A stretch of 64,000 nt of DNA from Cymbomonas tetramitiformis. Taxonomy: Eukaryota > Chlorophyta > Pyramimonadophyceae > Pyramimonadales > Pyramimonadaceae. The notes under the pieces are model-generated. The model worked only from the letters and a program-made list of their open reading frames with translations, was not told where the DNA came from and made no database searches. A program made the translations under genes and the position numbers. Of the stretch, positions 31,047 to 59,877 are shown in pieces; positions within the stretch are counted from its first letter, which is position 1, and the number at the start of each line of letters is the position of its first letter. The stretch spans positions 1 to 64,000 of the forward strand of contig LGRX02033442.1 of assembly GCA_001247695.2 (NCBI GenBank). Direction: 5' to 3'.

Positions 31047-31048
31047 TA

Positions 31049-33926: not shown

Positions 33927-34041
33927 TACAATTTAGGGTTTCGTCCCCAAAAGTTACATTAAAGTTGGGCATTCCACCTCAACTGCAAAGCATTCCGCTA
34001 AGCTCATTGTTTCAGCCATCGTGGCTCTACATTCTCACAAT

Positions 34042-34893: not shown

Positions 34894-34946
34894 AATGAAT
34901 ATACGATATACACTGAAAATATACACTGAAAAACTTACGGTGTTAC

Positions 34947-35104: not shown

Positions 35105-35331
35105 ACGATCTTACAAACCTGTCAGTGTTTGAGCGAAATCCAGGAAATCCTCAGCATTTTCAGGCAGTCTTACAGCGCTTGTGATACAGCTTGAGACCAA
35201 AAAGTTGTAGTACTATTTTCATGGCAGAGTTCCTGTGATCTCGACTTCTTGGCAGGATTCCTAACACAACCACCTCAGCAACCTGAAAAGTAGGGCTATA
35301 TAGTACACGCCTGGAGTGAACCAAATATCTG

Positions 35332-39923: not shown

Positions 39924-40856
39924 TTGCAATATATGGAAGATGAAGCTTCCTGGTTTTGCTTCATGTTGTGGCCATCTCATCGTCGGCATAAAAGAGCTTG
40001 GAGGGCTGGTGAGGGCAATTTTGAGGGCACTGTCATCAAGATGCTTTGTTGTCATAAAACTCATATAGTGTTTTGAAAATTAAAAAGCAATCCATTGTGA
40101 TTCATCGCTCCTCTTCTAGCATGGACAATCAGAACATAAGTGTCTTTAGACATCCAGAACTAGATGCACTTTATATATAGTATATATTGGGAGGTTTCAC
40201 CTTCATTGATTACCTTCATTGATCTGTCGTTCTTGTTATGCTAAGAGCGTGGCATCCTCCTCGGGCGTGACCAGCTTCCGACAGCGGTTGAAACCTCATC
40301 TCCTAGAAAATTGATGCAAAATACAAATTCGGCAACAGTTTACTAGTCTGAAGGGAAATTGAGAGAAATTTATGGAGCAACATCACTCAATAATCAATTT
40401 GAATGCATGCCATTGGCGTCTAGAGGCAAGTGGGCACTGCAGATGACAGCTGCCAATATGTTGGGGAGCAGGGTTGTGCTCGAGCCCCTTTAGACTCGCG
40501 AAAATTCTGCCCTTGGGGCCAAACCCTTACCCAATCCTAAAATGCGAATTAACATACTGCTGAGATCTAACTGGCAGCCCTTCCTGAGTCCCAGTGTAGG
40601 CCTCAGACCGATTGCTAGATCTGAACTGGCTCGGGGTAGCAAGTGTCGCGGAGTCACCGGTAGCTCGGTAGGCCAACCGTTCGGGTTTTAGGTTTCGGTA
40701 TATATGGGGGTATTCTAGATTAATTTTGGGACATAATCCAGATTAAAAACTCAAATGCCTTATTCGATATTAAATACTATGCATGACACTGACTCAATAT
40801 GCATCACCGATTCAAACCGCCTAAACCCACCTTTTGTCTTCACCGCTATTTTCTAT

Positions 40857-40890
<34 letters not shown>

Positions 40891-40964
40891 TGGATGTATG
40901 TATGTATGTATATATATATATATATAACCTCTGCTCCTTATGATTTGGAACCTGGCCAAATTAC
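39924..40964. other. Intergenic, 3' of the oxygenase gene
   Basis: Holds the presumed 3' untranslated region (AT-rich near 40070-40085) and no recognised gene. A (TA)n/(TATG)n microsatellite lies at 40856-40927. Confidence 0.5.
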
Positions 40965-40979
40965 CTTACCTTACTTAAT

Positions 40980-41033
<54 letters not shown>

Positions 41034-41265
41034 CAGCAGCAAAGCGCGAATCCCAACGGGCGACACAGACGAACTTCCGATCTCACGATCGCCAGACGCT
41101 AACGATGACAGTGCCACTGCAGTCGCGTACATTTACCGCAACGCCACCCACGCGTTATGGCATGGCATGTTGGGATGTAAAAAGCGAAGCACTGTCGCGC
41201 ACATGATCCTACGGTCAGATGGCCTAGTGGAGATCTCTTTTTGAGATCGATCCGCCTAGTATACA
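40965..41265 (+). repeat. CAG-headed dispersed repeat, isolated copy
   Basis: Pentamer accttacctta, then ~19 CAG units (40978-41041), then the same core as the 8030-10190 cluster. It ends in the gcctagtgga-hairpin-gcctagta module (stem gatctc/gagatc). It is closest to the copy at 9937-10190. Confidence 0.85.
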
Positions 41266-41663
41266 GTGAGATGTGAACCTTACAATAAAGTTTCTGATAC
41301 CTCTTTATATATGCATAATTATGTAGGGGTACGTGAACGTACAGGTATGGGAAAATCAATCTTCAAAAATCAAAAATCAAATTGTGATTATTGAAATATT
41401 TGGAGTGCAAGTCGCAATCAAGGGCTATTGGCGGATTATGGTAGTTTGGGTTCATTGTACGATTAAAAGTTTGGGAAAGTGTATGTTATGCAAGAGTACT
41501 ATATTACAAACTGAAATAGAATTCAAATATATCAATAGTAGATATTGACACTTTCAACATATTGCCAAATATTAAACCATTCGTAATACTATCAACAGCA
41601 CTTACAGATACTATCAGATGCACCAACGCCAGCTGCGCCAGCTTCAGGGGCTGCGATTACGCC

Positions 41664-41700
<37 letters not shown>

Positions 41701-42009
41701 GGTATCTGTTGCAGGGGCTCCAGCAGCGCCTTCTGGGTCAAAAGCGTCTCCAAGATCTCCAAGCGGTGCCGTGACCATGGAAAGTTCCATGGTCACGGCA
41801 CTAGGAGTTCCATGGTCACGACACCAGTAAATAAGTGTGAATGTTGAGTATGTGACACTGCAGGCATGCGTGTGTGGGTAGCAATTCTATGTACGACAAG
41901 GTTGTACGACAAGGTGTGGGTGTCACGGTGGCGAGTGAGTTGATATAAATACATAGATAATTTCAAATGAAATTATTTCTCCTGACGTGTTATAAATTTA
42001 TATATATAT
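41266..42009. other. Intergenic with a CTG run and a 36-bp palindrome
   Basis: No gene. A (CTG)n run at about 41667-41699. A perfect 17-bp-arm palindrome with a 2-nt loop lies at 41766-41801 (gtgccgtgaccatggaa and its complement), with a further copy of ttccatggtcacg at 41807-41820. Ends in (TA)n that provides the target site of the next element. Confidence 0.6.
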
Positions 42010-42305
42010 GGGATAAGTCTACATCGGGGCCGACATTTCATTTTAATCCACATCGGGGGCCGACATCTCATTTTAATCTACATCGGGGCAGACACTTCAT
42101 TTTAATCTACATCGGGGGCAGACACTTTATTTTAATCTACATCGGGGCAGACACTTCATTTTAATCCACATCGGGGCAGACATCTCATTTAATCTACATC
42201 GGGGGCTGACATGCCATTTTAATCTACATCGGGGGCTGACATCTCATTTTAATCTACATCGGGTGTAGACATCTCATTTTAATCCACATCGGGGATATGC
42301 ATTGC
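42010..42305 (+). repeat. Left terminal array of the MULE
   Basis: About ten units of acatcggggNNagacatctcattttaatct type with 1-3-bp differences. Inverted copies lie at 62640-62798 and, internally, 61718-61815. Confidence 0.88.
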
Positions 42306-42625
42306 ACTTCAATCCCAGATCATGCCCATCATCCTAGCATCCATGCATTACATCATGTACTTTCAAATGCACCAATTGCTGACGAGTGATGCCAATTGTA
42401 AGCATTCATTAATATTCCGTGTGAAAATGCATCACTTAATGATGCGTGATGCCAATTGTGATCATGCATTATTTCATGTTAGAATGATTCAATTTCATTG
42501 GCATTAACGCGTATCAGCACTCAGCACTGAATTCAACTTTTCAGTAGTTTAGTCTGAAGTTTTTCAGCACTTCACAACCCTTAACAGCACTTAGCAATTG
42601 AACTTAAGTGCACAAAGTTGGAAAG

Positions 42626-44777
42626 CTAGATTCTATTACACTTATCACTGCGGTGACCTGCTTTACCGCACTTGCTGCACTTGCTGCACTTGGATGCCTT
42701 CTTGGAACCGATCCTCTCCAAGATCCCCAGCTTGCGCTTCTGCATCTTTGGGCGGCCCTTCCTCTTTGCCGCCACAAGTGGGAGCAGCAAGTCTGGGTCA
42801 TAAGCAGGGTGCGCTTCACAATCCAGCAAGTTTGGCACCGGAGGGAATACCATATGCGCGGGATACTGCATCTTCCACTGAGCGGTGGTCTTCAAGGGGT
42901 CCACGTAGTCCTCCCACTTCCTTCCCGTCACCCGCGCATGCGCCAAGTTATGGTGACAAGGCATGCCTGACAATGCCGTGACTCCGCAATCACACTGCGC
43001 CGGCTCACCAGCTCTGAGCGTGCTAATGTAGCGCACCCCGGGTGTCACCGTGGAGACAACCCTGACAACCACCTTGTCAGTTGCAGTAAAGGAGATTCCG
43101 CTCGTGATGGTGAGTGCCTTCTCCATGGACTCCGCAACATCCAAGATCACGGCGGGTGGCAACTGGCCGATGGCCGATTGAGCTTTGGCCTTGTTCTCAG
43201 CGAACCTCTTTTCACACAGGCCGACGGTCCTCAGGAGGGCTTTGGTCATGAACACACCTTCCTTAAAGTCTGTCCGCACTTTCTCATTGGCCGCGTTCAT
43301 ACACTCCACGCAGCTTTTCACGGATTGACCGTGAAGCTTACCGCAAACCGCCATGTACTGTGACTGATCAGAGGCCTTTCCAAGGTACTCCGCTGCACGT
43401 GTGGAATACTGAGCCTTGATCCCTTCAAGCTTCGGGATCGTCGGTGCCTTCACCGCTTGCTGAAACAACGCCCGGGCTTCCGAGCCGCCAGGCCTGATCG
43501 TGGTGGACACACCATCCGCACGGTGACGAGCACAGGTGGACAAAAGACTGCCGTTACACATCACGGTGTCCCAAGCAGCCGCCAAACCCTTGTCCTTATC
43601 CGAGACCTCTCGGCGGTCGGGGTGGTCATAGACGTCACCGTAGGCCTCCTTCGAGAAGATTAGTTGCATGCTATGCGAGGTCTCACACTCGTTCATGAGG
43701 AGACATGCGTAGTTCATAGGCACCACGTGGTGATTGGCGTCCCGAGTCACCGTGTTCATCAGGATCCCTGCTGAGTTGTTGCGCATATGCGCCCCGTCCC
43801 CAAAGCTCACAGGAATTCACTTGTCTAACGTTTTAATTGTCGTGCAAGGAGCGAATGACCACCCGAGGCAGTATTGCTTACCCTCCTCCACGGAGTACTT
43901 GTGAGCCTTTTTTATCCCACCGATCACGCTGACCTACAGGCTTCGCCTTCTGCTCCTGCAAGAATTCCTTGTGCTCGATATCCACGAGCACTGCCTCCAT
44001 TTCCTTGGCCCCCAGCGTGTGGACCTCGCACCTGTGTCCTTGCTCGCGAAGAAGCTGAGCAAGTACAGGCAGCTTCGCGAGCTCCCTTGAAGGATCGCCG
44101 TTCAGCTTCGCTCTAGCAATGGTCATCACGCTTTGTACGAAACTGCGAGTAGGGTCCGAGCAGAGATATCGCTTGAGATCGCTTTTCAGGCTGGTGGCGT
44201 CGTACTTGGGGTTCTCCACAAGCTTCCTCGACGCGATGGGGGCGAGCTGCGCAGGTGTGCATGCGGTGCTGGCAGTGCGCGCCTTCACCTGATTGAGAGC
44301 GGTGCAGGTGAGCGCCTGGAAAGACACGCAGCGCCAAGCGCCCTCGGAATCCTTCACCTGCGCAGGCCTCCACTCCACACAGTGCTTGCATTCGGAGTCC
44401 ACGCCACAGCCTGCGAGCAACTGGAGGTGACCTTTTCCACAGAACTTGCCCAAGCCCTTGTGGAAACTCTTGGCATACGTGGCGAGCTTGCCATCGCGCT
44501 CTTCCACCTCAGCGGTCAGAAGAAGGGCGCTGTCGCGGCTGCCAACAATGAGCCCCTCCTGGATCAGGTCACTGATAGAAACAGCTCGCAAGGAAACCAG
44601 TTCGCGTGGAGGTAGAACCTCCGCCCCTCCTTGTGCTAGTCGAGTGGAAGCCTCAACCTGCATGACCCTACGCCGCTTAGCAGACAGGCGCTTCTGCTCA
44701 CGCCGCCGATTCTTGTATGCTTCTGCTGCTTCTGCTGCCGCTCCTCCCTCCTGCACACCAGCCGCCTCGTCCTCCAC
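42626..44777 (-). CDS. Mutator-like transposase, two exons
   Basis: Exon a is 44777-43882 (frame open upstream to about 44870) and exon b is 43805-42626, with a 76-bp GT-AG intron at 43806-43881 that keeps phase exactly. The exon join completes the first catalytic block (FGDGAHM). Then come a conserved DANHHVVPMNYACLL block, the second Asp in VSDKDKG, CARH, and a candidate Glu further on. C-terminal are a SWIM finger (CDCGVTALSGMPCHH) and a CCHC knuckle (CSKCGKAGHRSDKC), as in MuDR-type transposases. Exon a has Cys/His pairs (CGKGH, CGVDSECKHC) that fit an N-terminal zinc-binding region. The true start is uncertain: an acidic stretch (EEEEEEE) lies upstream in the same frame. Confidence 0.83.
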
Positions 44778-45638
44778 ACCCTCCTCCTCCTCCTCCTCCT
44801 CTTCGGGTATATTCAGTAACGCCGCCTCTTCCTCGTCCTCCGCATCTTCCTTTCCTGGCTGGCAGACATGTTGTTGCGTTCAGCCTCAGCAGCTGATGCA
44901 GCCTCTGCCAGCATTTCCTCCATGCCGTCTGGATACGCGGGTTCAACAGTTCGTTTCAAGCCAACAGTCAAATGCGAGACGCTGGATCGGCGGGAGCAAG
45001 AGAAGGTTGTGACGTTGAGGTTGGTGAACTGCAGGTCGCAGACGTTGTCAATATCATACACCGCAGGTGAAAGAAAGCAAGGTTTCATATAGTGTTGCGA
45101 CATCTTCACCAAGTTGGAAGCTCTGAATTGTGAGGGAGGGGCGAGTGCGACTGCCAGTGCGCCCAAAGATACCAAAGCCATGTTCTGGATGAAATAATAT
45201 ATCCCCAGGGATCAGGAACGTCGCTGAATGCGCGGTTAAGAAGTCCATTTGCGCCAGTTGTAAAACGTTAGGCAGGCAACCCGCAAGCTTCAAAAGATTG
45301 TTGTCTAAATCTGGGCCTTCTAGGTCAGGTGTGCCAGCAGTGGCGGCCGGCCGCACAGGTAGCCTCTCAATTGTGTCGCGAGGTCTTTTATTTGTCGTGT
45401 CGCAAAAAGATTCGTGTATATTAACGACGCTTCGCAGCTTTTTCAGAAATATGCTGTTTTTCATTTCGTTTCCCTTAAAGGAGCGAAACAGGTTTCCTGG
45501 AAAAAAGTGACATCGTACACACCGCACCGCAGGAGCTGTCCCTAAAAAATTATGCCGTTGGAAATTTTCCAAAAATTTCCTGCCGATGTCAGCAGTCCTA
45601 CCCAGGATTGTGTCGAGCGCTCGCGCTTTACCGGCCAA
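44778..45638 (-). pseudogene. Possible 5' part of the MULE transposase gene, frames disagree
   Basis: A minus-strand frame at 45638-45054 looks coding up to LLSFTCG. The frame at about 45072-44870 (VYDIDNVCDLQFTNLNVTTF through EEMLAEAASAAEAERNN) then looks coding, offset by one base. Exon a opens in the third frame. Either more introns or 1-base losses separate them. No domain recognised. Confidence 0.35.
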
Positions 45639-46012
45639 TCATGATACGATAGCATCTGAGGGATACCACGAACATGGGTCATAAGCAGAATAACCAATTG
45701 TAACTTTTATGCCCAAAAATTCTAAATGCGATTGATGCTCCAAGGCCAGAGGTGTCCGTCTTGGGCGAAAGCTCCCGCGTTTAATCTAACGGTTTTACCG
45801 ATCTCAGCAGTCCTATCCCGGATTGTCTCGACCGATCGTTCGTAACCGATAATGAGAGACACGTTTAACAATTCAAAATTATACCACGAAGATATGCGGA
45901 ATTTCCAATTATGAATTTGTCGCAAAACTTAGCTCCCTATAAGGCCAAGGGTGTGTGTCTCGGGCGAAAGCTCCCACGTTTAATCTAACGGTTTACCGAT
46001 CTAAAGCAGTCT
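45590..46012 (+). repeat. ~206-bp tandem repeat in the MULE, interrupted by copy C
   Basis: Units are marked by cgatctcagcagtcctatcc at about 45799, with diverged versions at 45592 and 46002. They share gggcgaaagctcccRcgttt and cgtaaccgataatgagagac. The next unit resumes after copy C at 59878 (ctcgtaaccgagaacgagag), so copy C inserted inside this array. Confidence 0.7.
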
Positions 46013-46697
46013 TGTGCCCGGAGGCACAGCGTGAGCCGATATGCCTATGCGTCCGTATGTGTGTCATCGGGGGTAATCTGGGATTGGCACGATGACAGTG
46101 AAATTGGGCTTGAAATCACGATGAGAATGAATACCAGATGTCTGGGGTATGACAGTATGACACTATGACAGTATGACAGTATGACACTATAGTAGTATGA
46201 CAGTACTGTGGGGGGTGTCATCGTGGAACTCAGTCAGACCCTCGAAGAATGGTCAGATTCGCATCGGGGTTGAAAAGACAATGAAATCGAATATCAGATA
46301 TTAAGGTTATGACAGTATGACAGTATGACGCTATGACAGTATGACAGTATGACAGTACAGTAGTATGACAGTACTGTGGGGCAGTCATCGTGTCAGCCTG
46401 TCGGCATAACATCTGAATCGAGAATGACGAATCGGAATTAGAAATGAGATCGGATCGGGAACTGAACGTTGAGCCGAAGTGTGACATCGGCTCTCGAGTG
46501 GTTGACCCTGCAACCTGAGTGACGAGTGAATAAGTAGAGCACTTGAGAAGTGTTTAGCCTTCAGAACTCGGAACCGAATTATCGTTTGTACCTCAATCTG
46601 GCCCTGATCCAGTATATTATAAAAATCCGAATTGTGTACCTTTGCACGTTCAATCAAAAACATATCTCCGAGCATCTGTCGTCGTGCCCCTGGCACA
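46013..46697 (+). repeat. 5' LTR of copy C (685 bp)
   Basis: TGTGCCCGGAGG...CCTGGCACA, with octamer-like tatgacag blocks. A candidate TATA (agtatattataaaaa, about 46611-46625) lies some 70-85 bp before the LTR end, so transcription would start close to the LTR end. Confidence 0.95.
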
Positions 46698-46715
46698 TTT
46701 GGTATCAGCGTGCTG
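46698..46715 (+). other. Primer-binding site of copy C
   Basis: tttggtatcagcgtgctg begins at the LTR edge. The tggtatcag part equals the first 9 bases of the complement of initiator-Met tRNA 3' ends used by many plant retrotransposons; the match then ends. Confidence 0.6.
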
Positions 46716-47937
46716 CGATTTCGCCTCTGCGCAACTCGCCCACGGGCCTTTTGAAACTTCCGTTGTGATACAGGGGGAGAGCTGTACTTCCGGCTATCTG
46801 TGCGCAATTTTAGCCTCCGTAAGTACATTTTTTTTCCGTATACAACGGCCGTATCCTCTGGAAAACATCTCCAAAACTTCATATTTTTGCCCCTTAACAC
46901 TGGGGGCTCAAACTGGCTCAGAAACCCAAGCATTCGTTTTCCGATCTTAAACCCGAAGTCCGTCCCAGGCCACAAACGACCGTCAGGGAGCACCCTAAAG
47001 GGTTTCCCCGGTCTACAGTAGCCAAGAAAACGATATAGCTCACCTTTCAGAGCCCCAAAAAGGCGAAAAACCGCCCAAAACAGCCAAAAATAGCCGTTTT
47101 TGACAGTTTCCAGCCTACCCCAAAACCTCTCCCAGTAGCCCCCACCACCGAAAAACCCCTCTTTAGACCCCATAGAACAGCCTAGAAACCCCTGATACCG
47201 CCCTCACGGCCATCAGCAGCGGGGAAAGCTCCACCAAAAGGCGCTTTCAGCAGTTCTGGGACGTTTCTGGCAGCCCTTCAGCACCTCCTGGTATCTTCCA
47301 GCAGCGCACTGACTGGGGCTTTTCTTGGGACCTACGGAGTACAGATACCGTCTGGGACCTCACTGGACCCCCATATTGGACCTGACACCTCCTTTTTCAC
47401 TGCTGCTTGACTCTTGCCCGCGCGCCTAGGCACTCAAAAATCGTGTCGCGGAGCCCTGGCCAAATTTTGAGTTCGCTGGTGTATGGCAGTACCCCCTTCG
47501 CCAGAAGAATACAGAAGAGCGTGGTGGAAGCAAGGACCTATCAAGTGGGTATTCCCCCCAGACCCTACCTATCCACCAGCAGGCGCTTTCTGGCAGAGCG
47601 GTCCTTGGAGCGGTCCTCCTTCCCCCTCCTCCTCTGACGACGAAGAGGAGAACAGCGACTGAACGCCTGGGCAAAGTCACGCTGGCCATCCCACCAGTAC
47701 ATTACGACCACGTGTGGCATCTCCAGGCAATACAAGTGATCGACGCCCCCCCTTGGGTCCTCCTTGGCGCTGATTGGGTTCCCCCATCTCCACCTGGAAG
47801 TCCCGCTCCTTCGCCTCCAGCGAGTGACATCGACGAGGACGAGGCTGATTAAATAAAAAGGCGAGCACTCACTACTTTTGCTCACCTGTGGCTATTGCCA
47901 CACCCAGTCTTTGAACTCAACCAGCTCAGCAGTCAGA
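46716..47937 (+). other. 5' leader of copy C
   Basis: About 1.2 kb with no supported gene. C-rich (ccaaaacagccaaaaatagcc) in the first half. An untranslated leader with packaging signals is expected here. Confidence 0.6.
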
Positions 47938-48393
47938 ATGTCACAGCAGACATCAGAGGCATTCCCCAGCATGAGTGTCAGCGCAGAGCAGCTACACCAC
48001 ACACTGTTCTCTCCCATGACCTTCCCATCGCCCGCCGCTTACGCTTCCGCTCACCCCATTCCACATCCAGGCACCACCATGCCCTACACAGCGGTGCCCC
48101 GCCCTTATACTATGCCGGATGGCACCCCCGCACAGGCTGTATGGAACGGCGTCAATTGGGTATTGCCCCAATCAGCGCCCCTCGCTGGGGGAGTATCACC
48201 AGTGCCGTTCACACTGGGAACCCATCACCCCGTGGGCGCATATCCCACACCGTTCCAACAACAGCTACAGCAGCAGCAGCAGTGGCTCGCGTACCAGCAG
48301 CAGCAACAGCAGTGGCTTCAGCAGCAGCCACTGGAACCGATGCAGCAGCAGTTACAGCAGCAGCAGTTACAACAGCAGCAGTTACAGCAGCAA

Positions 48394-48424
<31 letters not shown>

Positions 48425-51366
48425 CGCAGCCGCCACAACAGCCGCAGCATCGACCACAGCAGCCCCATCAGCTGGCACCAGCCACCTCCGCGCTTCATGA
48501 CTCAGGCGCGGATCTCTCATCGCTGCAGCACTTCATCAGCATCGGCGCCGCGGCCCTGCCGGACCCTCTGCAGGTACCCCTTGACAGCGGGGTTCAGCAG
48601 AACGTCTTGGGCGGTACCCAGCTCTTGGTGCGTCACCTTCCCGCGGTGGCGACAACCTCAGAGACTCGCCGGCGTCGGCGTTCCCGAAGGGCATCTTCGG
48701 GCCCTGCGACACATGGCAAGCATCTTCCAGGCCCAAGCCACGCACCTGATCACTCTGACCCCGACTCCGGTACGGACATCAGCCGCACCAGCACGGGGAC
48801 CAGAGGCAGCCGAAGCACGCAGGCACGGGCTGAGCGCAGGCGGAGGGCCGCCCACAGGTCCGGCTCCGACTCGGACGCGAGCAGCCGAAGTGAACACATT
48901 CGCAGAGAAGTCCTGGCGGCAGTACAGGCCCTGGACATCTCCGCGGTGCTCTCGAGAGGACTCGCGCTGCCTGGTGCGACGGCATCGGCAGGAGCCTCCC
49001 CACCAGGCGACCCTCAGGGCAGCGCACAGGGCCTGACGGCGGACCATCTACACGAGGCAGACGCCGTCGCCAGCGTAACCCCTCCAGTGCCTCAGACCGC
49101 CGCTGAGACCGCTCCCGCCGAACCTCCCACTCAGGGCCGGCCAAATCCCCATAACATGATGGTGGCCCGCCGGCGGCAGTCGATGGAGACGGTGGTGCAC
49201 GGCGGTGGCAATCCCGACTCAGAGCCCAGAGACTCCAGTCCAAGCGACTCGCCACCAGGCCCCCCTAGTGATCCACCTCAGGATCCCCCTGACGATCCCG
49301 CACCAGAGCCCTCCTACCCTCAGTACCCAGAGGTCAGAGCCCTCTTCGTCACCCACGATGGTGGGTCATTGTGGGTGCACCAGTCAGCTGGGGTGCGAGG
49401 CGCGGCAACCGTCTCCCTACCATGGGACGAACGCCGCCGGGCTGGGGTGCAGGGCGACGCCATCTTGTTCAGGATCATGCACCTGCTGGGAGCGCCGCTG
49501 ACTGCATATGCGCGCATGGGGGGCCGGCTACACCATGCACCCCTACCCCTTACCAACCCTCGTGTGGAGACCTGGGTCCTCATGGTCGACCGCGAGGTCA
49601 TGGATATGGCAATGGGGGACCCAGCCGCGGCCAATGTGCGGTCTACCAGCATGGGGCAGCCAGTATGGGAGTGGATCCCTGCTACTGCGCGGGAGTCGGA
49701 GATGCAGAACTTCGATCAGGACGGGCTCGCCGCGTGGTCGGAGGTCAGCAACTCCGATTGGTACCGGAGCATGAGCGTGGTGGCCGCACAACCATCCACA
49801 CCCCTGCCCTTCCATACACCTCTCCCACTCCCCGCACCACCATCAGCCCCTACATTACCGCCCACTCCGACCGCAGTCCCCACAAATCCCGCGCCTGCGC
49901 CTCCGCCCGCGCATGCCCCGGGACCACCACCTCCTGCCCGTTTCCCCCATTCCGCCGCCGCAAACCCCGTTCACTCTGCCGCTGCCGCGAACCCCGTTCA
50001 CTCTGCCGCCGCTGCGAACCCCGTGCTCTCTCCCAGCGCCACCCCCTTTGTTCCAGGCATCGTCCGTCTGCCGCAGGGCACTAACCTGCGAGCATCTCCA
50101 GACGAGGTCCGCCTGGAGCACAAGACCAAAGAGATGGTGCTAAAGCTGGTCAAGAGCGTCACCAGGTTCCCCCGCTCCGCGTCCGACACAAAATCGGCCG
50201 ACAAGGAGGGCCTCCTGACGCAGTTGGAGCACTACTCCCACATGGTGCGGAAGGTATTCCAGGAGGCCATCGTGATCGAAGCACTGACCACTCCCAGTTG
50301 TACGCCATCAGTATCAGAGTACCAGGCGAGTGTGTCAAGCCTTCTTTGGAGCTTCAAGGAGTACACTCTTCAAGACCAGCAGAGAAAGTTCTTGGAGCGC
50401 GCGGCGGGGACCTTTGGGTCCGAGCAAGCTTGGCACCAACGCTACGGGGAGCTGGACGTGTTCTTCAGCGATCTGGCGGTGTGCTCTCTGACGCAGGCCT
50501 ACCTGGAGAACGCACACGGCGAGGCCATTGCCCTGAAGCAGGCGGTGAACGAGACCGCGGCGGAGTATTTCTCGCGACTGGAGACCCGCATGGCCTCCGT
50601 CAACTTCCTGGCCGGCAGAGTCCCCAATTGCGTGGAGATGACCAACCTGTCGATGCTCTCTACGTACCGCCGGGGGCTGAAATATGCACCCAAGGTGATG
50701 CGGCGCCTGAGAGCCATCCACTTGGATGTCTCCAAACCAGAAGAGTGGGAGAGGAAGGCCGTCGCTGACGACATCCCAGGCACCCACAACGCCTTGTTGA
50801 AGATTCGGGAAGTTGCTGAGGAGGTGGAGAGTGACATTGACACGGAGGCGGCTCAGAGGCGCTCTCAAGACCGTCCTCCCCGTGCTGTTTCCTTCGCTAA
50901 CCCACCACCTCGCACCCCCTTCTACAGGCGTACCCCCTCTTCGAGCCGCCCAGCTCTTGCCATGCTGGAGAACGGGCCTGCCACCACCGTCGCCGCGGCA
51001 GTGACTCCTTTGCCACCACCACCTGGCCTCTCCCGCCCCGACGCTCCGAAAGTCCGCCGGTGCTTCGCCTGCGGCTCTGCGGAGCACATCGTCCGTAACT
51101 GTACGGACGAGGCTAAACTCAAGGAGTGGAGGGCCAATGCACCCGCTCGACTGGCGAACTCCCCTGGGTTTGTAGCCGCCGTCGTTTGGGCCATCGAGCA
51201 GCAGGAGGACATCTCCTCGGTGGATGGCGTCCCAGAGGAGTTCTCCGAGGAGGTCTTGGCTCTTGCTACCTGTGAGGACGAGCAGAGCTACCAGACCCTG
51301 GCGGCCCTTGCGGGCATCGAGCTTGTGGAGGGTGACGGCCTTCCCCCGGTGGAGAGCGATGAATGA
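47938..51366 (+). CDS. gag: Ty3/gypsy gag (copy C)
   Basis: ATG 47938 to TGA 51364-51366, 1142 residues; the frame is open upstream to a TTG at 47878 but MSQQTS is the first ATG. Polyglutamine from CAG/CAA repeats lies at about residues 100-170; Ser/Arg- and Pro-rich regions follow. The retrotransposon gag/capsid domain is at about 760-945 (a stretch containing EYFSRLETRMASVNF and YRRGLKYAP). A CCHC knuckle (CFACGSAEHIVRNC) is at about 1041 and the tail is acidic. It forms the particle and binds RNA. The stop is followed in the same frame, without another stop, by pol. Confidence 0.9.
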
Positions 51367-54300
51367 CTGGCCGGCGGCCAGCCCCAGACCCTGCCCTTCG
51401 AGGAAGTGAGGTCTTGCCCTGATGATCAGACCCTCTCCGCCCTGGAGAAGCGGTCAGAACCAGTGGAACCCCGACGCGCCCGAGGACGCAGAGACCCTTG
51501 GGGCCAACGCCCCCATCCCAAGAGCGTGGCCTTCACCTCTGGGACCCGCTTGCGACGCACCTACCGCTCAGCTGGTGCCCCATCGCCGCCGAGGGATGAC
51601 TTGTCCAGCCACCCTCTTGCAGGAAGCACCCCCTTCGATGAGCCGTCACTACCTCTTGATGACGGCCCTGCTTATACACAAGCGAGGATCGAGGGTCGGA
51701 GGGGACGGCGAGTCCCCCGGCACAGACCCCCCATTATGGGCAACAACCGCGGAGAGCCCCGCGATCTTCGCCCCCGACCGCGTGTTGTCCTACCGCTGCC
51801 CATCTATCAGTCCAACCTCGCAGACCCACGGAAAAGGCTAACTGCGTGGCACTGGAAGAGAGATCTGTACTCCCTCCCCCTCGAAGTCGCCATGCAGAAG
51901 GTCCGCAGAGCTCTGCGCAAATCCCCAGAGGCTGCCAAGGACCTGGTGGATAAAATGTCGGAGCGCGTCCGCAGCCGCATACACTCTGGGAGTCGATCGC
52001 CAAAGGAGCGCGTGAACCGCGCCAACCAGCTGGCAGAGAGGATACGCATTGCCCGCGAACCTCAAGATCGCAAGGAGGGCCATCAGCGCATAGCATTGTG
52101 GCACCTCCTCTCACACGACGGTCGCCAGCAAGTCCCCGAACCCTCTAACGCCAGCTCCCACGACCTCTACGCGGCTTGGAGAGAGCTGTCGCCCGCCGAG
52201 CAGCAAAAGGCAATCGCCACTTCGAGTCCAGACTCTTCCCCAGGTAGCAGGCTGTGGGAAAAGGAGGGCGCACGAAGAGCAGCAGCGAGATCTTCGACAT
52301 CCCTCTGCACCCTGGACACTGAAGTGGGCACGATACCTGGGACAGCGGGAGATGTGGGTCTACCTGGCGCCTGGTGCAGTCTGCACGCAGTACACCAGTA
52401 CAAGATGAGGAAGCTGGGTCCCAGCCCCTTGGGAGCATCCCCTCCATCATCCTCGCTGGCCGAGCCCACAACAGAGACTACATCTTCGCACCATGATAAC
52501 GCGCCGGCCACTCCGGGAGGAAACCCCGAAGGTTCATCCACCTACTGCTCAGAGGCGGAGGAGACCTCCGCACCCAGTTCGCTTTGCTTCACCCAGCAGA
52601 TGACCACCGTCAGAACGCATGAAGCGGATGAAGCGCCGCCCTGTCTCGACAGCCACCCCATCGCCGAAGACCCTGAGGTGATGGAAGAGGAGTCCTCGGT
52701 CAATTCGCTCTGCTTCACCCAGCAGATGGCAGCAGCTGGGACCCCTGAGACGAGAACTGACCACCAGAGCTCCCACCAACTCGCCCACAACTCCCCTGCT
52801 GGCAGCCCTCAGCATGACGAGGATCCTCTCACCCATGGCAGTCTCATCAATAGTGTCGCTACCCATGTGAGCCCCACAACAAGCGGCACTACCCACGTGA
52901 GCCCCACAGTAAGCGGCACTACCCATGTGAGCCCTACCACCAGTGGCACTACTCATGTGAGCCCTACTACCAGTGACACCACCCATGTGAGCCCTACCAC
53001 CAGCGACACCACTCATGTCAGCCCCACCTCGAGCGAATGCACCTCAGCGGGCACCCTGCTGACGGCGAGTGCAGACAACCTCGTCAGTCATCCGACTGAA
53101 GATGTTGATTTGCTGGATGAGGAGTTCTACGCCGCGTGTAGGCAAACGTTGGAAGAATGCCGCGAGGCCTCGGACAACCTCCTCCCCAACCTCAAGTGCA
53201 AAAGCATACGCACAGATGGGGGAGTTCAGTGGAAGACCGACATCGAGGGTACCCTTGCAGCGGCACATGACGAAGAAGGACCGCTACTGCTGGTATTCTA
53301 CGCAACCCTCAGAGGGCACACGGTCAAGGTGCTGATCGACTCGGGGGCCTCTGACAACTTCATCTCGGAGCAGAGCGCTAAGCGATGTGGCCTCACGACA
53401 CGAGCCGGCTCCGAGATGCGAGTCACCCTGGCGGATGGATCTGTGAAGATCACTGGCGCCACCGCGTACGCCGGCAAGTTTAACACGCACACCACCACGG
53501 GCACCTATACGGAGAACGCCCTTGCCCTCCGGATCCTACCACTGGGCATACAGGTAGATGTTATCCTCGGCGGAAGGTGGCTGCGCAGTCACTCTCCTGT
53601 CACTCTGGGCTATGAAGGGAATGGCTCCGTCTCCTTCCTCAGGAAGTCCCGCAGTGGTAAGATTGGGGATCGCGTCACCATCACAGGCTGTTCTCCTGGG
53701 AAAGCATCTGGGGACAGGTCTCCGAAGGGCACGGCCTGCGCGGGATTGGTGGATGAGGTGTTCCTAACCCCTGCCCAGCTGAAGAAGTACCTGGTGTACG
53801 CGGAGACGCAGAAGCTACGCGGCAATGACGACCCGGAGATACAGCCCGCCTGGCTCATGGTGGCCGAGAAGTCCCCCGACGATACTGCTTCTGCCTTTGC
53901 AGCCACGGCTATCGACTCTGAGAACGCCGAACCCGCTGCGGATACTGAAGATGCAGAAGTGAGCCCTGAGTGGACCCTCAAGTTTCAGGACTTCTGGGGT
54001 GAGGAGTACAAAAAGGAGATGACGACTGCCCTACCGAACATCGATGGACTCAGACATGACCCCCAAGATGAAGCCAACATTAACCTGGACCCTGAGCTGA
54101 GCAAGAAGGGGCCTCCCTGCCAGCGCATCTACAAGAAGTCCGCAGAGGAACTCCGCCAACTTCGAGAACGCGTGGAGACTCTGATGTCCAAGGGCTACAT
54201 CCGACCCTCTTCCAGCCCTTATGCAGCTCCCTGTTTGATGGTCCCTAAACCCGGGAACCCCAAGGAGCTGCGACTGGTGATCGATTACCGGCTCCTCAAC

Positions 54301-57300
54301 CGCCAGACAGTTAAGGACAAGTATCCTCTCCCAGACATCCAGATGATGTTCGACGAGATGCAGGGTGCGAAGTTCTTCTCTTCGTTCGACGCGGTGGATG
54401 GCTTCTGGCAAGTTCCGATGGCACCAGGAGATGTCGAGAAGACCGCCTTCACCACCCAGATGGGGTCATATGAGTGGTTGGTCATGCCGCAGGGGCTGCA
54501 GAATTCACCGTCTCAGTACCAGCGACGGATGCAGCGGGCCTTGGGCCATCTCCCATTTGTCCGGATCTTCATCGATGATGTGGTCGTCTTCAGCAACACC
54601 GCTGCAGAGCACTACGAGCACGTCAAGCAACTGCTCCTGACATGCAGGGAGAAGGGCGTCTTCCTCAAGAGGTCCAAGTGCCAACTGTTGAAGAAATCCT
54701 TGCGGTTCCTTGGCCACTGTATCTCCGCAGATGGCTGCAGACCCCAACACGACAAGGTGGCTGCAGTGAGGGACTGGCCCGAGCTGGAAACGGTTACCCA
54801 CGTCAGGCAGTTCTTGGGCCTGGCGGGGTATTACCGCAGGTTCATCCACTGCTTCTCCGAGATCGCTCAGCCCCTCACCCGGTTGACCAAGTCGGACGTA
54901 CCCTGGGAGTGGGGTCCCATGCAGCAGTGGGCCTTCGAGGAGCTGAAGAAGGCCCTCACCTCAGCGCCAGTGCTCGCCTTGCCCAACATTAAGGGTGCCG
55001 CAGACGGCACAGCACCTTTCGTGGTACAGACGGATGCTAGCGGCATCGCTCTTGGGGGAGTACTGATGCAAGACAATGGAGATGGTCTTGGACTGCGCGT
55101 GATAGCATACGAGAGCCGCCAGTTCTCAGCCGCCGAGCAGAATTACCACACCGGCGAGCGTGAGCTAGGTGCTCTACACCATTGTACCACCGTTACCTGG
55201 CGGCATTACCTCATCTTCACCAACTTCCGCATCCAGGGTGATCACCGCCCCCTTGAATGGCTGATGGAACCTGGCAGGGAGCTTAGCCGCAGACAGGCAC
55301 GCTGGTACATGGATCTGGTGGAGGTGGGAGTCCCGAGAATGGAGTACATCAAAGGAGCGCTGCTGCTGGTACCGGACGCCCTGTCCAGAAGACCCGACTT
55401 CAAAGACAAGGACGTGCGTGAGGGGTTGAAGGAGGCAGGGGTGATCGACCCCACCTCAGATCTACCGAAAGACCCCCTGGCAACGCTGGAGTCTGAATAC
55501 TTCTCCAGCTCACCACCCGCAGCTCATCCCCACTGGGCCCAGACTGTTGACTGTTGGCTCTCAGCAGTGGAGACCCTCTCTGTGGCGGAACAGGCCATGG
55601 ACAAGGGGGAGACCATCGCTCTCGTTAACCCGAAGCTCTATAGGGGAATGAAGGAGGATCACCTCGACTTCGACATGCCTGACTGGCCTGCAGCTGATAG
55701 CGCGAAGCCGGTAGAAGCTCCACACAAACCCCCTGATAGAGCCCCACCCCAGATAAGGATAACGAGGAGTATGTCACGCGCTGGGAAGACCTCTACGACC
55801 CCAGCGCCTCCGCAGATGGCGTCACCGAAGACGCGGACGCCTACGTCACGAGCTGACGCATCGGAGGCGCCCACTGAGAAGGTGCCAACGAGCTCACCAA
55901 CCCCGCAGCAGGCGCCCCAACAGTCAACTCCATCCCCGGTCCTTCACCCACAGAAACGGCAGGCTCCCCCAGAGGACTCACAGAATTGGCGTGTCCGAGC
56001 AGAGTACTCCTCGAAGTACGCCGAGAAATTTGGACCCTTCGATGTGGACGCCTGTTGTGACTTTGGCGGTCGCAACAGACAGGCGGATAGATTCTGGACA
56101 GACTGCCTTTCAGAGAAATGGAGGGGCCTTCGGGTTTGGTGTAACCCTCCATACAACTCCAAGTGCATTACTGTGGAGGCGATCTTGAACAAGTATATCG
56201 CAGAATGGAAGGCAGACCCAGAGAACACCTCAGCAGTATTCGTTCTGCCAGATCACCAGTCCAAGCTCCCCGCGTGGCGCAAACTTTTCAGAAAGGCCAA
56301 TATGCAGATTGTGGAGGTCATCCCTACTCACGATGACAAGGGCGAGCCCAACCAGTTCTTCGAGAACCCAGATGGGAGAGCCTTCAACCTTCGCTGGCCT
56401 GTTCTGATAGTACACGCCCCTCCCGCCAAACCACAACCAGCACGCGTGAGGCATCCGCGAACAGCCCCCGCTGTGATAAGGACAGGCGAGGCGGCAGACT
56501 TCAGAGACGCAGCCTCCCAGCAGTCGGATTCAAAGTTCCTGCGCGCGTTGAAAGCGGAGTACACCCGAGAGGGGACACTTCGTTCACTAAGAGAGAAAGT
56601 GAAGGCGGCACCACACCAATGCCTACAGGACTTCAGGCTAGTGGGTGAAGTGGTTTGGAGAACCGCAGCAGGGAGATATCAGTTAGTGCTGGGAGAGGAC
56701 TCTCCACTTCGAGAAGTGGTGATTCGCCATGCTCATGAGTCATTGTCCTCAGGCCACACTGGGCGAGACAAGACTCTGGAGAGGGTGCTGCGGCGCTTCT
56801 ATTGGCGTGGTGCCGCGGAAGATGTGGGCACCTGGGTTGCATCCTGCGCAGTGTGCCAATCAGTGAGGCCGCGGGGAACTTACCCGGATGGGTTGCTAAA
56901 CCCTCACAGCATCCCGAACAGGCCATGGCAGGATGTCGCGGTGGACTTCGTCACCGGCCTGCCGGTATCAGAGAGAGGCAATGATGCTTTCGTGGCCTTC
57001 ACCTGCAAGCTGACGAAGATGGTACACGTTGTGCCGATGAACTTCGGCGACAGCTCCGCAGCTGTGGTGGCCAGAATCTACTTTGACTCGGTGTGGCGCT
57101 TACATGGCGCGCCTATGAAGATTGTCTCTGATCGTGACCCACGGTTTCAAGATGCCTTCTGGCAGGAGCTCATGAGACTGATGGGTGTGAAAGTGGCTCG
57201 TACCACGCCGTATAACCCTCGGTCTGACGGCCAGGCGGAACACAGCAACAGGGTTATTGAGGACATGCTCAGGTCCTTTGTAGACGCCAATGTGGAAGAC

Positions 57301-58695
57301 TGGGATCTGTTCACCACTAACGTGGAGTTCGCGATCAATGACTCCAGGAGTGAATCTACTGGCTTCACGCCATTTGAGCTGGTGTTCGGGTTCTCGCCGC
57401 TATCGCAGTTGGACCTTTTCCTGGAGGCCGCGCAGTCCACCGCTGGACGACGAACTGGGGGAGTAGGCACCGCACACGAAGTGGCTGTGAAATTTTCGTC
57501 GCAGCTGCGGGACGCCAGACAGCGGTTAGAGCTGGCTCAACAGCGACAGCGCGAACAGTTTGATCGCAGACACGGGCAGCGGGAGTATGCTGTTGGAGAT
57601 CTGGTCTGGATAGAGGCGAAACACCTTACGGAGAAGGTGATGGATCGCTCCATCTGTAGGAAACTGACCAAGCGCTGGCATGGACCAGTTCCTGTGACCG
57701 AACGCTTCTTCAGCGATGTACAGATGACCATGCCAGAGGCCGACAGAGGAGCTCCAGTAGCCTACCGCCTACGCCTCCCTCCTCACCGGCGGATTCACGA
57801 CGTGTTCGCTCAACATCGCCTCAAACCGTACACCAGCGGTCAAGATGCTTTTGCCGCACGCGATCACCTAGCAGTACCTGAAGAGGTGGTAGTGGACGGT
57901 CAGAAGGAAGCACACGTTGAGCGCATCCTTGCGCGTCGAGTGCGGTCTGTTCGAGGAAAGGAGGTGGAAGAGTGGAAGGTTCGCTGGACTGGTTACTCCA
58001 AAGCTCACGACCAATGGAGGACGCGTGACAAACTTGAACGCGGAAGTCCACTTCAACAACTTCGTGAATTCGAGCAAGCGAGACTGCACATGGAAGCGCA
58101 AGTCCGCGACGAAGCCACTCGGCGACGCGAGCAGCGTGGCCGCCACTCCGCTCAAGCCGGAATGACACTGGCCCACCTCATCACTAATCCCTGCGATGAA
58201 CTGGACCAGCTCGAGCAGATGGAAGATGATATCCCCCTGCCGTGGGAACGCCAAGAGCGCGTGGAAGATGGGTCGTTGGCACTGGCGACAGAGCTGCTGG
58301 CAATACAGGCAAAAACAACCCGCTCGCCCAGGATTCTCGTACTTTTCAGCGGTACTGGCTCAGTAGAGAGGGAATTCCTAAATTGCTTCCCCTCCGCCTC
58401 AGTAGTGACCCTCGACTCCGGGCATATCTGGCAACCCACTCATGTGTGTGACATCCTGCAATGGGACTACAGACAATACCCGCCTGGATTCTTCGATGTT
58501 ATTTGGGGTTTTGGGCAAGTCCCCCCTGCAGGCAGTACAGTCAAGCGCGCACCACTGGTGGACCCCCTGACCTTCCCCAAGCTGACAAAATCGTACGACG
58601 AGCATTGCAGATCATTGACTACCTGGAGCCAAAACATTGGTTCATGGAAAACCCCAGAGGTCGCTTCCCTAACGCGCTACGGCTTCGCCCTATGA
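51367..58695 (+). CDS. pol: Ty3/gypsy pol polyprotein with two methyltransferase domains, frameshifted 3' end (copy C)
   Basis: Open directly after the gag UGA in the same frame; there is no ATG near the start, which suggests translation by UGA readthrough. Residues are counted from the GTG at 51406: protease DSGAS (~644); reverse transcriptase (~930-1110, FIDD ~1055); RNase H (TDASG ~1208); Dam-like methyltransferase (~1530-1650, VDACCD ~1545, CNPPY ~1577); integrase HHCC (~1775-1815) and DD35E (D ~1846, D ~1908, E ~1943); chromodomain (~2170-2220); start of the C5 methyltransferase-like domain (LFSGTG ~2312). An 8-bp duplication near 58505-58515 (tttggg made tttggggttttggg) shifts the frame just before ASPPC, so the present product ends at 58695 with unrelated residues. 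Protease to chromodomain appear intact. Confidence 0.92.
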   Translation: MAGGQPQTLPFEEVRSCPDDQTLSALEKRSEPVEPRRARGRRDPWGQRPHPKSVAFTSGTRLRRTYRSAGAPSPPRDDLSSHPLAGSTPFDEPSLPLDDGPAYTQARIEGRRGRRVPRHRPPIMGNNRGEPRDLRPRPRVVLPLPIYQSNLADPRKRLTAWHWKRDLYSLPLEVAMQKVRRALRKSPEAAKDLVDKMSERVRSRIHSGSRSPKERVNRANQLAERIRIAREPQDRKEGHQRIALWHLLSHDGRQQVPEPSNASSHDLYAAWRELSPAEQQKAIATSSPDSSPGSRLWEKEGARRAAARSSTSLCTLDTEVGTIPGTAGDVGLPGAWCSLHAVHQYKMRKLGPSPLGASPPSSSLAEPTTETTSSHHDNAPATPGGNPEGSSTYCSEAEETSAPSSLCFTQQMTTVRTHEADEAPPCLDSHPIAEDPEVMEEESSVNSLCFTQQMAAAGTPETRTDHQSSHQLAHNSPAGSPQHDEDPLTHGSLINSVATHVSPTTSGTTHVSPTVSGTTHVSPTTSGTTHVSPTTSDTTHVSPTTSDTTHVSPTSSECTSAGTLLTASADNLVSHPTEDVDLLDEEFYAACRQTLEECREASDNLLPNLKCKSIRTDGGVQWKTDIEGTLAAAHDEEGPLLLVFYATLRGHTVKVLIDSGASDNFISEQSAKRCGLTTRAGSEMRVTLADGSVKITGATAYAGKFNTHTTTGTYTENALALRILPLGIQVDVILGGRWLRSHSPVTLGYEGNGSVSFLRKSRSGKIGDRVTITGCSPGKASGDRSPKGTACAGLVDEVFLTPAQLKKYLVYAETQKLRGNDDPEIQPAWLMVAEKSPDDTASAFAATAIDSENAEPAADTEDAEVSPEWTLKFQDFWGEEYKKEMTTALPNIDGLRHDPQDEANINLDPELSKKGPPCQRIYKKSAEELRQLRERVETLMSKGYIRPSSSPYAAPCLMVPKPGNPKELRLVIDYRLLNRQTVKDKYPLPDIQMMFDEMQGAKFFSSFDAVDGFWQVPMAPGDVEKTAFTTQMGSYEWLVMPQGLQNSPSQYQRRMQRALGHLPFVRIFIDDVVVFSNTAAEHYEHVKQLLLTCREKGVFLKRSKCQLLKKSLRFLGHCISADGCRPQHDKVAAVRDWPELETVTHVRQFLGLAGYYRRFIHCFSEIAQPLTRLTKSDVPWEWGPMQQWAFEELKKALTSAPVLALPNIKGAADGTAPFVVQTDASGIALGGVLMQDNGDGLGLRVIAYESRQFSAAEQNYHTGERELGALHHCTTVTWRHYLIFTNFRIQGDHRPLEWLMEPGRELSRRQARWYMDLVEVGVPRMEYIKGALLLVPDALSRRPDFKDKDVREGLKEAGVIDPTSDLPKDPLATLESEYFSSSPPAAHPHWAQTVDCWLSAVETLSVAEQAMDKGETIALVNPKLYRGMKEDHLDFDMPDWPAADSAKPVEAPHKPPDRAPPQIRITRSMSRAGKTSTTPAPPQMASPKTRTPTSRADASEAPTEKVPTSSPTPQQAPQQSTPSPVLHPQKRQAPPEDSQNWRVRAEYSSKYAEKFGPFDVDACCDFGGRNRQADRFWTDCLSEKWRGLRVWCNPPYNSKCITVEAILNKYIAEWKADPENTSAVFVLPDHQSKLPAWRKLFRKANMQIVEVIPTHDDKGEPNQFFENPDGRAFNLRWPVLIVHAPPAKPQPARVRHPRTAPAVIRTGEAADFRDAASQQSDSKFLRALKAEYTREGTLRSLREKVKAAPHQCLQDFRLVGEVVWRTAAGRYQLVLGEDSPLREVVIRHAHESLSSGHTGRDKTLERVLRRFYWRGAAEDVGTWVASCAVCQSVRPRGTYPDGLLNPHSIPNRPWQDVAVDFVTGLPVSERGNDAFVAFTCKLTKMVHVVPMNFGDSSAAVVARIYFDSVWRLHGAPMKIVSDRDPRFQDAFWQELMRLMGVKVARTTPYNPRSDGQAEHSNRVIEDMLRSFVDANVEDWDLFTTNVEFAINDSRSESTGFTPFELVFGFSPLSQLDLFLEAAQSTAGRRTGGVGTAHEVAVKFSSQLRDARQRLELAQQRQREQFDRRHGQREYAVGDLVWIEAKHLTEKVMDRSICRKLTKRWHGPVPVTERFFSDVQMTMPEADRGAPVAYRLRLPPHRRIHDVFAQHRLKPYTSGQDAFAARDHLAVPEEVVVDGQKEAHVERILARRVRSVRGKEVEEWKVRWTGYSKAHDQWRTRDKLERGSPLQQLREFEQARLHMEAQVRDEATRRREQRGRHSAQAGMTLAHLITNPCDELDQLEQMEDDIPLPWERQERVEDGSLALATELLAIQAKTTRSPRILVLFSGTGSVEREFLNCFPSASVVTLDSGHIWQPTHVCDILQWDYRQYPPGFFDVIWGFGQVPPAGSTVKRAPLVDPLTFPKLTKSYDEHCRSLTTWSQNIGSWKTPEVASLTRYGFAL

Positions 58696-58991
58696 TGCGC
58701 CAGCTTCCCCCACCGCTGGTGTGTACCTACTGCATGTACGGTACGCAGTACATGAAACCCACCTGCATATGGACGAACTCAGCACCACCCTCGCCCCTGC
58801 TACGCTGTACTACTTCAACACCGTGTGCGTGCAGATGGGCAACCGGTGCTCATCCAGAGACTGCTCAGCTTGGACCTCACCCGCAGCAGACTGGAGCAGG
58901 TCGATCTGCGAGTGTATATCCCGTGCCAGCACTCCTGCTACGACAACTTTTCCGACATTTACGCCTCCGCGACACTGAAGACCCGCTTTAG
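58461..58991 (+). pseudogene. Displaced 3' part of the C5-cytosine methyltransferase (copy C)
   Basis: After the 8-bp duplication the domain continues in this frame: ASPPCRQYS (catalytic Cys), MENPRGRF, then CTYCMYGTQYMKPTCIWTN to the same C-terminus as copy A, stop at 58989-58991. Copy C therefore encodes the cytosine methyltransferase only if ribosomes shift frame; it is most simply a mutation. Confidence 0.85.
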
Positions 58992-59179
58992 ATTCCAAGT
59001 GGCACCCTTCTTCTTGAAAGTGGTGCCCTGGTAGCGGCAGGCAAACTATGCTCGAAGAGGAACCAGAGAACCTAAGAACTGGAAACAGCAAGGAACCAGA
59101 AAACCTAAGAACTGGAACTTAGATGGGTACCTTAGCGGAGTGATCCCAGGAGGTAGACCACTCCTAAGGGGGGGAGAGT
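58992..59179 (+). other. 3' non-coding stretch and polypurine tract of copy C
   Basis: Equivalent to 3901-4088; ends in aagggggggagagt before the LTR. Confidence 0.75.
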
Positions 59180-59872
59180 TGTGCCCGGAGGCACAGCGTG
59201 AGCCGATATGCCTATGCGTCCGTATGTGTGTCATCGGGGGTAATCTGGGATTGGCACGATGACAGTGAAATTGGGCTTGAAATCACGATGAGAATGAATA
59301 CCAGATGTCCGGGGTATGACAGTATGACACTATGACACTATGACAGTATGACAGTATGACACTATAGTAGTATGACAGTACTGTGGGGGGTGTCATCGTG
59401 GAACTCAGTCAGACCCTCGAAGAATGGTCAGATTCGCATCGGGGTTGAAAAGACAATGAAATCGAATATCAGATATTAAGGTTATGACAGTATGACAGTA
59501 TGACGCTATGACAGTATGACAGTATGACAGTACAGTAGTATGACAGTACTGTGGGGCAGTCATCGTGTCAGCCTGTCGGCATAACATCTGAATCGAGAAT
59601 GACGAATCGGAATTAGAAATGAGATCGGATCGGGAACTGAACGTTGAGCCGAAGTGTGACATCGGCTCTCGAGTGGTTGACCCTGCAACCTGAGTGACGA
59701 GTGAATAAGTAGAGCACTTGAGAAGTGTTTAGCCTTCAGAACTCGGAACCGAATTATCGTTTGTACCTCAATCTGGCCCTGATCCAGTATATTATAAAAA
59801 TCCGAATTGTGTACCTTTGCACGTTCAATCAAAAACATATCTCCGAGCATCTGTCGTCGTGCCCCTGGCACA
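59180..59872 (+). repeat. 3' LTR of copy C (693 bp)
   Basis: Same ends as the 5' LTR, with one extra tatgacac unit and about one substitution noticed (gtccgggg versus gtctgggg). Followed by the target duplication agtct. Confidence 0.95.
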
Positions 59873-59877
59873 AGTCT

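Follow-up and report, generated by a model that had tools for sequence, protein, structure and literature searches.

Several retrotransposons are known to carry methyltransferase domains in their pol polyproteins. Cytosine methyltransferases in retrotransposons, and Dam-like (adenine-type) domains in DIRS elements, have been described (PMC5890265), and a 2019 opinion paper on retrotransposon methylases names Ty3/Gypsy elements too (PMC6338049). Here we analyzed a window of 64,000 nucleotides from the marine green alga Cymbomonas tetramitiformis (contig LGRX02033442.1, positions 1 to 64,000, assembly GCA_001247695.2), in which three young long terminal repeat (LTR) retrotransposons, elements A, B and C, appear to combine a Dam-like domain, a cytosine-5 (C5) methyltransferase domain and a chromodomain in one pol polyprotein.

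Each of the described systems shares part of this arrangement. KnitGypsy-Dnmt3, from the charophyte Klebsormidium nitens, resembles the window elements in being an LTR Gypsy element with a C5 domain in pol, conserved key residues and purifying selection; unlike them, it has a eukaryotic Dnmt3 domain and repeats arranged as in DIRS (PMC5890265). In the sections of that paper covered here, no adenine methyltransferase is named for it and “chromodomain” has no match. The C5 domain of the window elements groups instead with compact stand-alone enzymes and is accompanied by a second, Dam-like domain. DIRS elements, among them SymbioDIRS-Dnmt3, likewise carry a Dam-like or a Dnmt3 domain in pol, and the Symbiodinium Dnmt3 domain is reported to methylate CG de novo, but none with both domains is described in the same sections (PMC5890265). 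DIRS elements also use a tyrosine recombinase, whereas in the window elements the integrase is of the DDE type, the LTRs are ordinary and the duplications span 5 bases. Chromoviral Ty3/Gypsy elements with a chromodomain in pol, as here, have been reported from Cymbomonas itself, where LTR elements make up 140.6 Mb of the assembly; the main text of that paper, in the portion available, has no match for methyltransferase, methylation, methylase or MTase (PMC10675990). The double architecture is not described in the parts covered of PMC9289625, or of PMC12344493, which notes the presence of DNMT3 in retrotransposons of both LTR and DIRS type. No report of it was found among the open-access papers listed, as assessed from their titles and the starts of their abstracts; novelty is not proven, because subscription papers and repeat-database notes lay outside this search. 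The window elements extend the known methyltransferase-bearing retrotransposons, and the pairing of both domains appears to be new.

Element C, on the plus strand, spans 46008–59877 including a target site duplication, AGTCT (46008–46012 and 59873–59877). Its body (46013–59872) runs from a 5′ LTR (46013–46697, TG...CA), directly followed by the primer-binding-site-like sequence TGGTATCAGCG, to a 3′ LTR (59180–59872) preceded by a purine-rich tract, and the two LTRs show 1 substitution in 685 aligned positions plus 1 indel. The gag open reading frame (ORF; 47878–51366) ends in TGA and has a weak zinc knuckle match, below the cut-off. The pol ORF (51406–58695) encodes, by domain profiles, an aspartic protease (53323–53589), a reverse transcriptase core (54229–54726), RNase H (54910–55323), a Dam-like PF05869 domain with the motif NPPY (55981–56424), an integrase core (56926–57237), a chromodomain (57898–58071) and the in-frame start of a C5 domain (58336–58509). 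An 8-base insertion relative to element A near 58.5 kb shifts the frame of this last domain, so that only its first ~58 residues are in frame and the motifs ASPPC and MENPRG lie outside it.

The intact form is seen in the other two elements. Element A, of which the 3′ part lies at the window edge (1–4789, plus strand; 3′ LTR 4089–4789), has a pol that is open from the edge to its stop (1–3900), with profile matches to the Dam-like domain (898–1341) and to a complete C5 domain (3253–3861). It is a near-identical copy of C (99.0% identity over 4773 aligned positions, three indels). Element B, on the minus strand, spans 11690–28049 including the duplication AAGGA, which flanks its 5′ LTR (26722–28044) and 3′ LTR (11695–13017); the body is 11695–28044, and the LTRs have 2 differences in 1323 positions. 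Its pol ORF (13098–20669, 2523 amino acids) contains the Dam-like domain (15648–16091, motif NPPF) and the C5 domain (13149–13757) together in one open frame, both from domain profiles. At about 56% identity to C pol in a 1781-column alignment, B represents a separate family. In both A and C we found the Dam-like block (VDACCD, then CNPPY) where the original prediction had placed it, after RNase H and before integrase; the prediction also placed a C5 block (LFSGTG, ASPPC, MENPRG) after the chromodomain, which holds for A and, because of the frameshift, not for C beyond the in-frame start. Element B, absent from that prediction, also carries both blocks.

By sequence, A, B and C are chromovirus-like Ty3/gypsy LTR retrotransposons with a chromodomain. 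Their LTRs have TG...CA ends, with the 5-base duplications noted for B and C, and pol follows the Ty3/gypsy order of protease, reverse transcriptase, RNase H and integrase, with a DDE-type integrase (rve). The rve profile scored below its gathering score in all three, and Integrase_H2C2 well above. Behind the integrase, the chromodomain profile PF00385 passed its gathering score in each. A purine tract is present in all three and a primer-binding-site-like sequence in C; no primer site was identified in B. DIRS membership was ruled out by the integrase, the ordinary LTRs and the lack of a tyrosine recombinase match in pol.

Both methyltransferase assignments draw on profiles, catalytic motifs and predicted structures. 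Pfam Dam (PF05869) matched A, B and C at 30.7, 36.8 and 29.6 bits, above its gathering score of 28.1, in alignments that span only profile positions 5–78 of 169, and the catalytic motif (N/D)PP(Y/F) is present in each. The C5 profile PF00145, which the original prediction had also proposed as a check, fell short of its gathering score of 22 in B (20.4 bits) and A (19.8 bits), with C not listed; among nine scanned relatives, P0032–P0035 and P0040 passed, and P0021, P0036, P0037 and P0039 failed. PHROG 757, annotated as a DNA methyltransferase, matched A (E = 2.4e-16) and B (E = 3.1e-14), again with C not listed. The usual C5 motif VI is ENV; here it reads ENP. Structure prediction gave methyltransferase folds for both blocks of B (pLDDT 90.2 for the Dam-like and 88.1 for the C5 domain). 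In these models, the Dam-like block has a methyltransferase fold, and the C5 domain, with its predicted fold, PPC cysteine and motif VI glutamate, fits the C5 methyltransferases in the wider sense. A lack of significant profile or fold matches, or loss of catalytic residues from every copy, would have spoken against the proposal; both kinds of match are present, and the catalytic residues are kept in A and B. A Ty3/gypsy pol with a chromodomain and both an adenine-type and a C5-type domain is therefore almost certainly what these elements encode, as far as profiles and models can tell, and the architecture in the original prediction is borne out for A and, in C, for its Dam-like half.

The same architecture recurs outside the window. 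A search with the C5 region of B among proteins of whole-pol length gave 35 relatives. Five carry the name Cymbomonas tetramitiformis, among them P0022, which matches B pol at 97–98% identity over two long stretches; P0011 is a protein encoded in the window itself. In 26 of the 35 (P0006–P0031), domain profiles placed RNase H, Dam-like, integrase, chromodomain and C5 in this order, with the C5 domain incomplete in P0020 and P0022. P0032–P0034 have the C5 domain and no detected Dam-like domain. In P0035–P0040 the C5 domain is N-terminal to the reverse transcriptase, except in P0040, where it lies between RNase H and integrase. P0035 has a Pfam Dam match of 29.4 bits, above the cut-off, between protease and C5, with which profile comparison agrees (E = 6.9e-6), and P0039 has an N-terminal Dam match of 21.2 bits, below it. 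Lack of the Dam-like domain in P0032–P0040 is not proven, because several of these proteins start close to their first domain. In a midpoint-rooted reverse transcriptase/RNase H tree of the window elements and found relatives only (34 rows, 33 different), proteins with the window order form one clade (25 rows, support 95/96, three of the rows being the window itself or its near-copy), and P0035–P0040 fall far off. A scan of genome contigs gave 16 loci. The best of them, L191 (positions 13–3978 of NHEN01000032.1, from a Verrucomicrobiaceae bin), is a eukaryotic retroelement piece with the RNase H, Dam-like, integrase, chromodomain and C5 domains of this clade, and is most likely a misbinned eukaryotic contig.

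We then considered where the C5 domain came from. A C5 profile search gave 4610 matches among 8000 scored candidates, of which 120 were listed. Among these 120, 72 were stand-alone, defined as having at most 25 residues outside the C5 domain, and the remaining 48 were longer and included five with a Pfam chromodomain. In C5 trees, retrotransposon domains fell among stand-alone ones. A single clade of retrotransposon C5 domains was rejected by the approximately unbiased test (p-AU = 1.1e-5, 24 retrotransposon rows held together), in a tree that took 24 of 35 retrotransposon and 35 of 72 stand-alone rows; neither C5 tree included Dnmt3 rows, and the groups were defined after the first tree had been seen. 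Three rows counted as stand-alone inside the main group (P0047, P0085 and P0115), all on short contigs, could be retrotransposon pieces. The firmest result is the separation of P0035–P0040 from the rest (100/99). The simplest reading of these trees is that the C5 domain was captured more than once; the reverse path, in which C5 domains escaped from retrotransposons, would predict the same pattern.

The donor was likely viral. The best viral fold match of the B domain was the C5 enzyme of Tetraselmis virus 1, a giant virus that infects a green alga (BFVD A0A2P0VN45; 36% identity, TM 0.88). This enzyme and stand-alone relatives of 196–229 amino acids have the same size and fold as the window C5 domains; they are free enzymes rather than parts of a retrotransposon. 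Two contigs of a virus collection encode a stand-alone compact C5 methyltransferase (L180, 9830–10495, and L182, 6487–7164). ORFs were listed for three viral contigs, these two and L161. L180 also encodes an N6/N4 methyltransferase and a primase-helicase (PHROG, E = 8.6e-17), has a capsid match far below the cut-off (E = 0.035), and may be a polinton-like or similar protist virus; no credible solved relative was found for its 544-residue protein and no PHROG match for the 500-residue protein of L182. L161 looks like a bacterial virus from its ORFs. The viral contig scans A1, A2, A3 and A4 gave at least 80, at least 80, 19 and 20 loci, and a scan with P0110 gave none. By tblastn, the 12 phage records nearest to the C5 domain were distant, the best at 32% over the whole domain; the 12 nearest to the Dam-like domain were also distant, none covering 80% of it.

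What could two such domains do for a retrotransposon? We favor the reading that both, produced as part of pol, modify DNA newly synthesized by the element itself, so that each copy arrives pre-marked, and we put its probability at roughly 40%. The Dam-like and C5 domains would be processed and packaged together with reverse transcriptase and integrase. The C5 domain comes after integrase and chromodomain, an arrangement suggesting that it remains attached to the integrase; it would then travel with the intasome and deposit 5-methylcytosine (5mC) on the cDNA or the integration site, while the Dam-like domain would place an N6-methyl group on adenines of the cDNA (6mA). A copy pre-marked in this way might be treated less as foreign and would owe part of its chromatin state to the element; camouflage from host silencing or site choice, the purposes put forward in the original prediction, would be possible uses of such marks. 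Of the systems put to a test, SymbioDIRS-Dnmt3 comes nearest: its domain is reported to have CG methylation activity, and its cDNA is argued, in the sections covered, to be a likely target of methylation during reverse transcription (PMC5890265). Part of another paper describes how, in Micromonas and Ostreococcus, both prasinophytes, active genes carry 6mA in place of 5mC on their first nucleosomes (PMC12695648), and Cymbomonas is also called a prasinophyte in the part covered of PMC5741210. Because of this 6mA/5mC pattern and the SymbioDIRS-Dnmt3 case, an element with both writers could mark its new copy.

We looked for a footprint of such methylation. Of the transitions between A and C, 8 fell within 595 CpG positions and 32 within the 4178 aligned positions outside CpG. 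Three LTR comparisons, which share sequences and yield tiny numbers, gave 1, 1 and 2 transitions, all at CpG. The observed/expected CpG ratio was 0.77–0.81 in A, B and C, 0.78 in 28050–45990, and above 1 in two further stretches (1.12 and 1.08). Any footprint of methylation by CpG decay is weak in these sequences. In prasinophytes, high 5mCG is reported, in the part covered of the source, along with CpG enrichment (PMC12695648).

Several of our observations weigh against action on the element's DNA, and we give them here with the alternatives that compete with it. Its main rival, which we consider unlikely, is action on RNA. The Dam-like domain would then modify adenosine in RNA of the element, in the manner of the cap-specific enzyme PCIF1, and the C5 domain would, as DNMT2 does, target a tRNA such as the primer, or else the genomic RNA, to the benefit of packaging, RNA stability or escape from RNA sensors. 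The solved fold closest to the Dam-like model of B was the cap-specific adenosine N6-methyltransferase PCIF1, at 12–15% identity; PCIF1 shares the NPPF motif, is far larger and acts on RNA caps. Among solved sequences, the C5 profile reached, at a threshold of 0.01, DNMT2, DNMT1 and a tRNA C38 methyltransferase, matching part of the domain in every case, and with 203 residues against 327 in M.HhaI, the domain has little room for a target-recognition region. However, the Dam-like sequence matches Pfam Dam and phage DNA methyltransferases, and the cap enzyme may rank first merely because the solved matches shown include no phage PF05869 enzyme. In fold comparisons the C5 domain comes nearest to DNA enzymes, in a ranking led by DNMT3 (tied with HaeIII and HhaI), and to C5 enzymes of viruses.

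About as unlikely, in our view, is that the domains are passengers: chance captures whose catalysis is unimportant, retained for a time because they bind DNA or space the polyprotein. Loss occurs in both: the C5 domain is frameshifted in C, a copy with near-identical LTRs, and cut short in P0022, so single copies, at least, tolerate its loss, and NPP is missing from 5 of 29 Dam-like domains (P0008, P0013, P0019, P0021 and P0025) and kept in 24. Against this, the PPC motif and the motif VI glutamate are kept in 35 of 35 complete C5 domains (the incomplete ones of C, P0020 and P0022 being left out), which makes catalytic motif conservation tighter in C5 than in the Dam-like domain. Both blocks are also conserved above the stretches that precede them, across diverged families and with open frames. 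Identity between A and B is 59% for the Dam-like domain and 64% for C5; it is 40% from RNase H to the Dam-like domain (C–B) and 39% from chromodomain to C5 (A–B). Between families, ratios of nonsynonymous to synonymous differences (pN/pS, NG86 counts) were 0.34 and 0.30 for the two domains and 0.63 and 0.66 for the stretches before them, values that are only indicative because synonymous sites are saturated throughout.

This contrast has limits. The A–B stretches from Dam-like domain to integrase and from integrase to chromodomain, which hold integrase parts, match the methyltransferase domains in conservation (62% and 67%; pN/pS 0.35 and 0.31), so that it holds for two of four stretches in A–B; against L191 it holds for all four. 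Between B and L191, pN/pS was 0.45 for the Dam-like domain, 0.44 for C5, 0.36–0.37 for RNase H and integrase, 0.59 for the chromodomain, and 0.63–0.73 for all four intervening stretches. The Dam-like domain is the least conserved between families among the enzyme domains compared, and reverse transcriptase, RNase H and integrase, with C–B identities of 70%, 77% and 77%, all surpass both methyltransferase domains. Over 1140 aligned codons of A and C, pN was 0.0038 and pS 0.041. Indications that a compact virus-type C5 enzyme was captured more than once, and the Dam-like/C5 pairing in two distant Ty3 lineages, point to use, not accident.

We think it very unlikely that the domains act in trans, against competing DNA parasites such as giant viruses and polinton-like viruses, or by resetting host chromatin so that the host tolerates the element. 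Trans action has been proposed in general terms for retrotransposon methylases (in the part covered of PMC6338049), the Cymbomonas genome is described as rich in giant-virus and polinton-like insertions (in the portion available of PMC10675990), and virus contigs carry C5 relatives. However, no foreign target is indicated by the sequence, and pol, within which the domains lie, acts on nucleic acid of the element itself. An assembly or annotation artefact is exceedingly improbable: repeats are hard to assemble and one copy is frameshifted, but the same domain order in many records, the 26 proteins from several sources (named Cymbomonas records included) and L191, rules it out for the pol architecture.

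Other features of the window concern the expression of these elements and their surroundings. A lone TGA (51364–51366), followed by CTG, separates gag and pol of element C, which share a frame; the pol frame is open from this stop, upstream of the listed ORF start, and expression of pol by readthrough is possible. In element B, a candidate gag ORF (21851–25867, minus strand), assigned from its position before pol and a CCHC-like motif read by eye, is in a different frame from pol, with 1.18 kb containing many stops between them; pol must therefore be expressed in another way than in C. Each LTR of B contains a 349-codon open frame (11967–13016 and 26994–28043), and the copy at 11967–13016 has no Pfam match. 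Elsewhere in the window, 160-base direct repeats (29811–29969 and 34947–35104, 95.6% identical) surround a minus-strand ORF with an RVT_1 match (E = 1.7e-8); by sequence this region, 29811–35104, is a second kind of retroelement. A minus-strand ORF at 42626–43810 has a weak MULE transposase match under the cut-off (E = 0.0041), and 55-base tandem repeats occur in blocks at 36969–39675. No Rfam families or tRNAs were found in the window.

Retrotransposons are usually targets of methylation. An element with two putative writers in one polyprotein would let us ask directly whether a retrotransposon determines its own chromatin state and whether, on one new insertion, 6mA and 5mC compete. Long reads of Cymbomonas exist (PMC10675990, in the part covered), and if the raw signal was kept, reading base modification on young copies from them looks feasible. 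In its broadest form, which we regard as doubtful, the proposal is of a widespread Ty3 lineage with working 6mA and 5mC writers, repeatedly captured from algal DNA viruses, that sets the epigenetic state of each new copy, or that makes one RNA and one DNA mark if the Dam-like domain is PCIF1-like. If true, a single retrotransposon would carry the means to write two marks of opposite meaning in its hosts, 6mA on active genes and 5mC in silencing or compaction.
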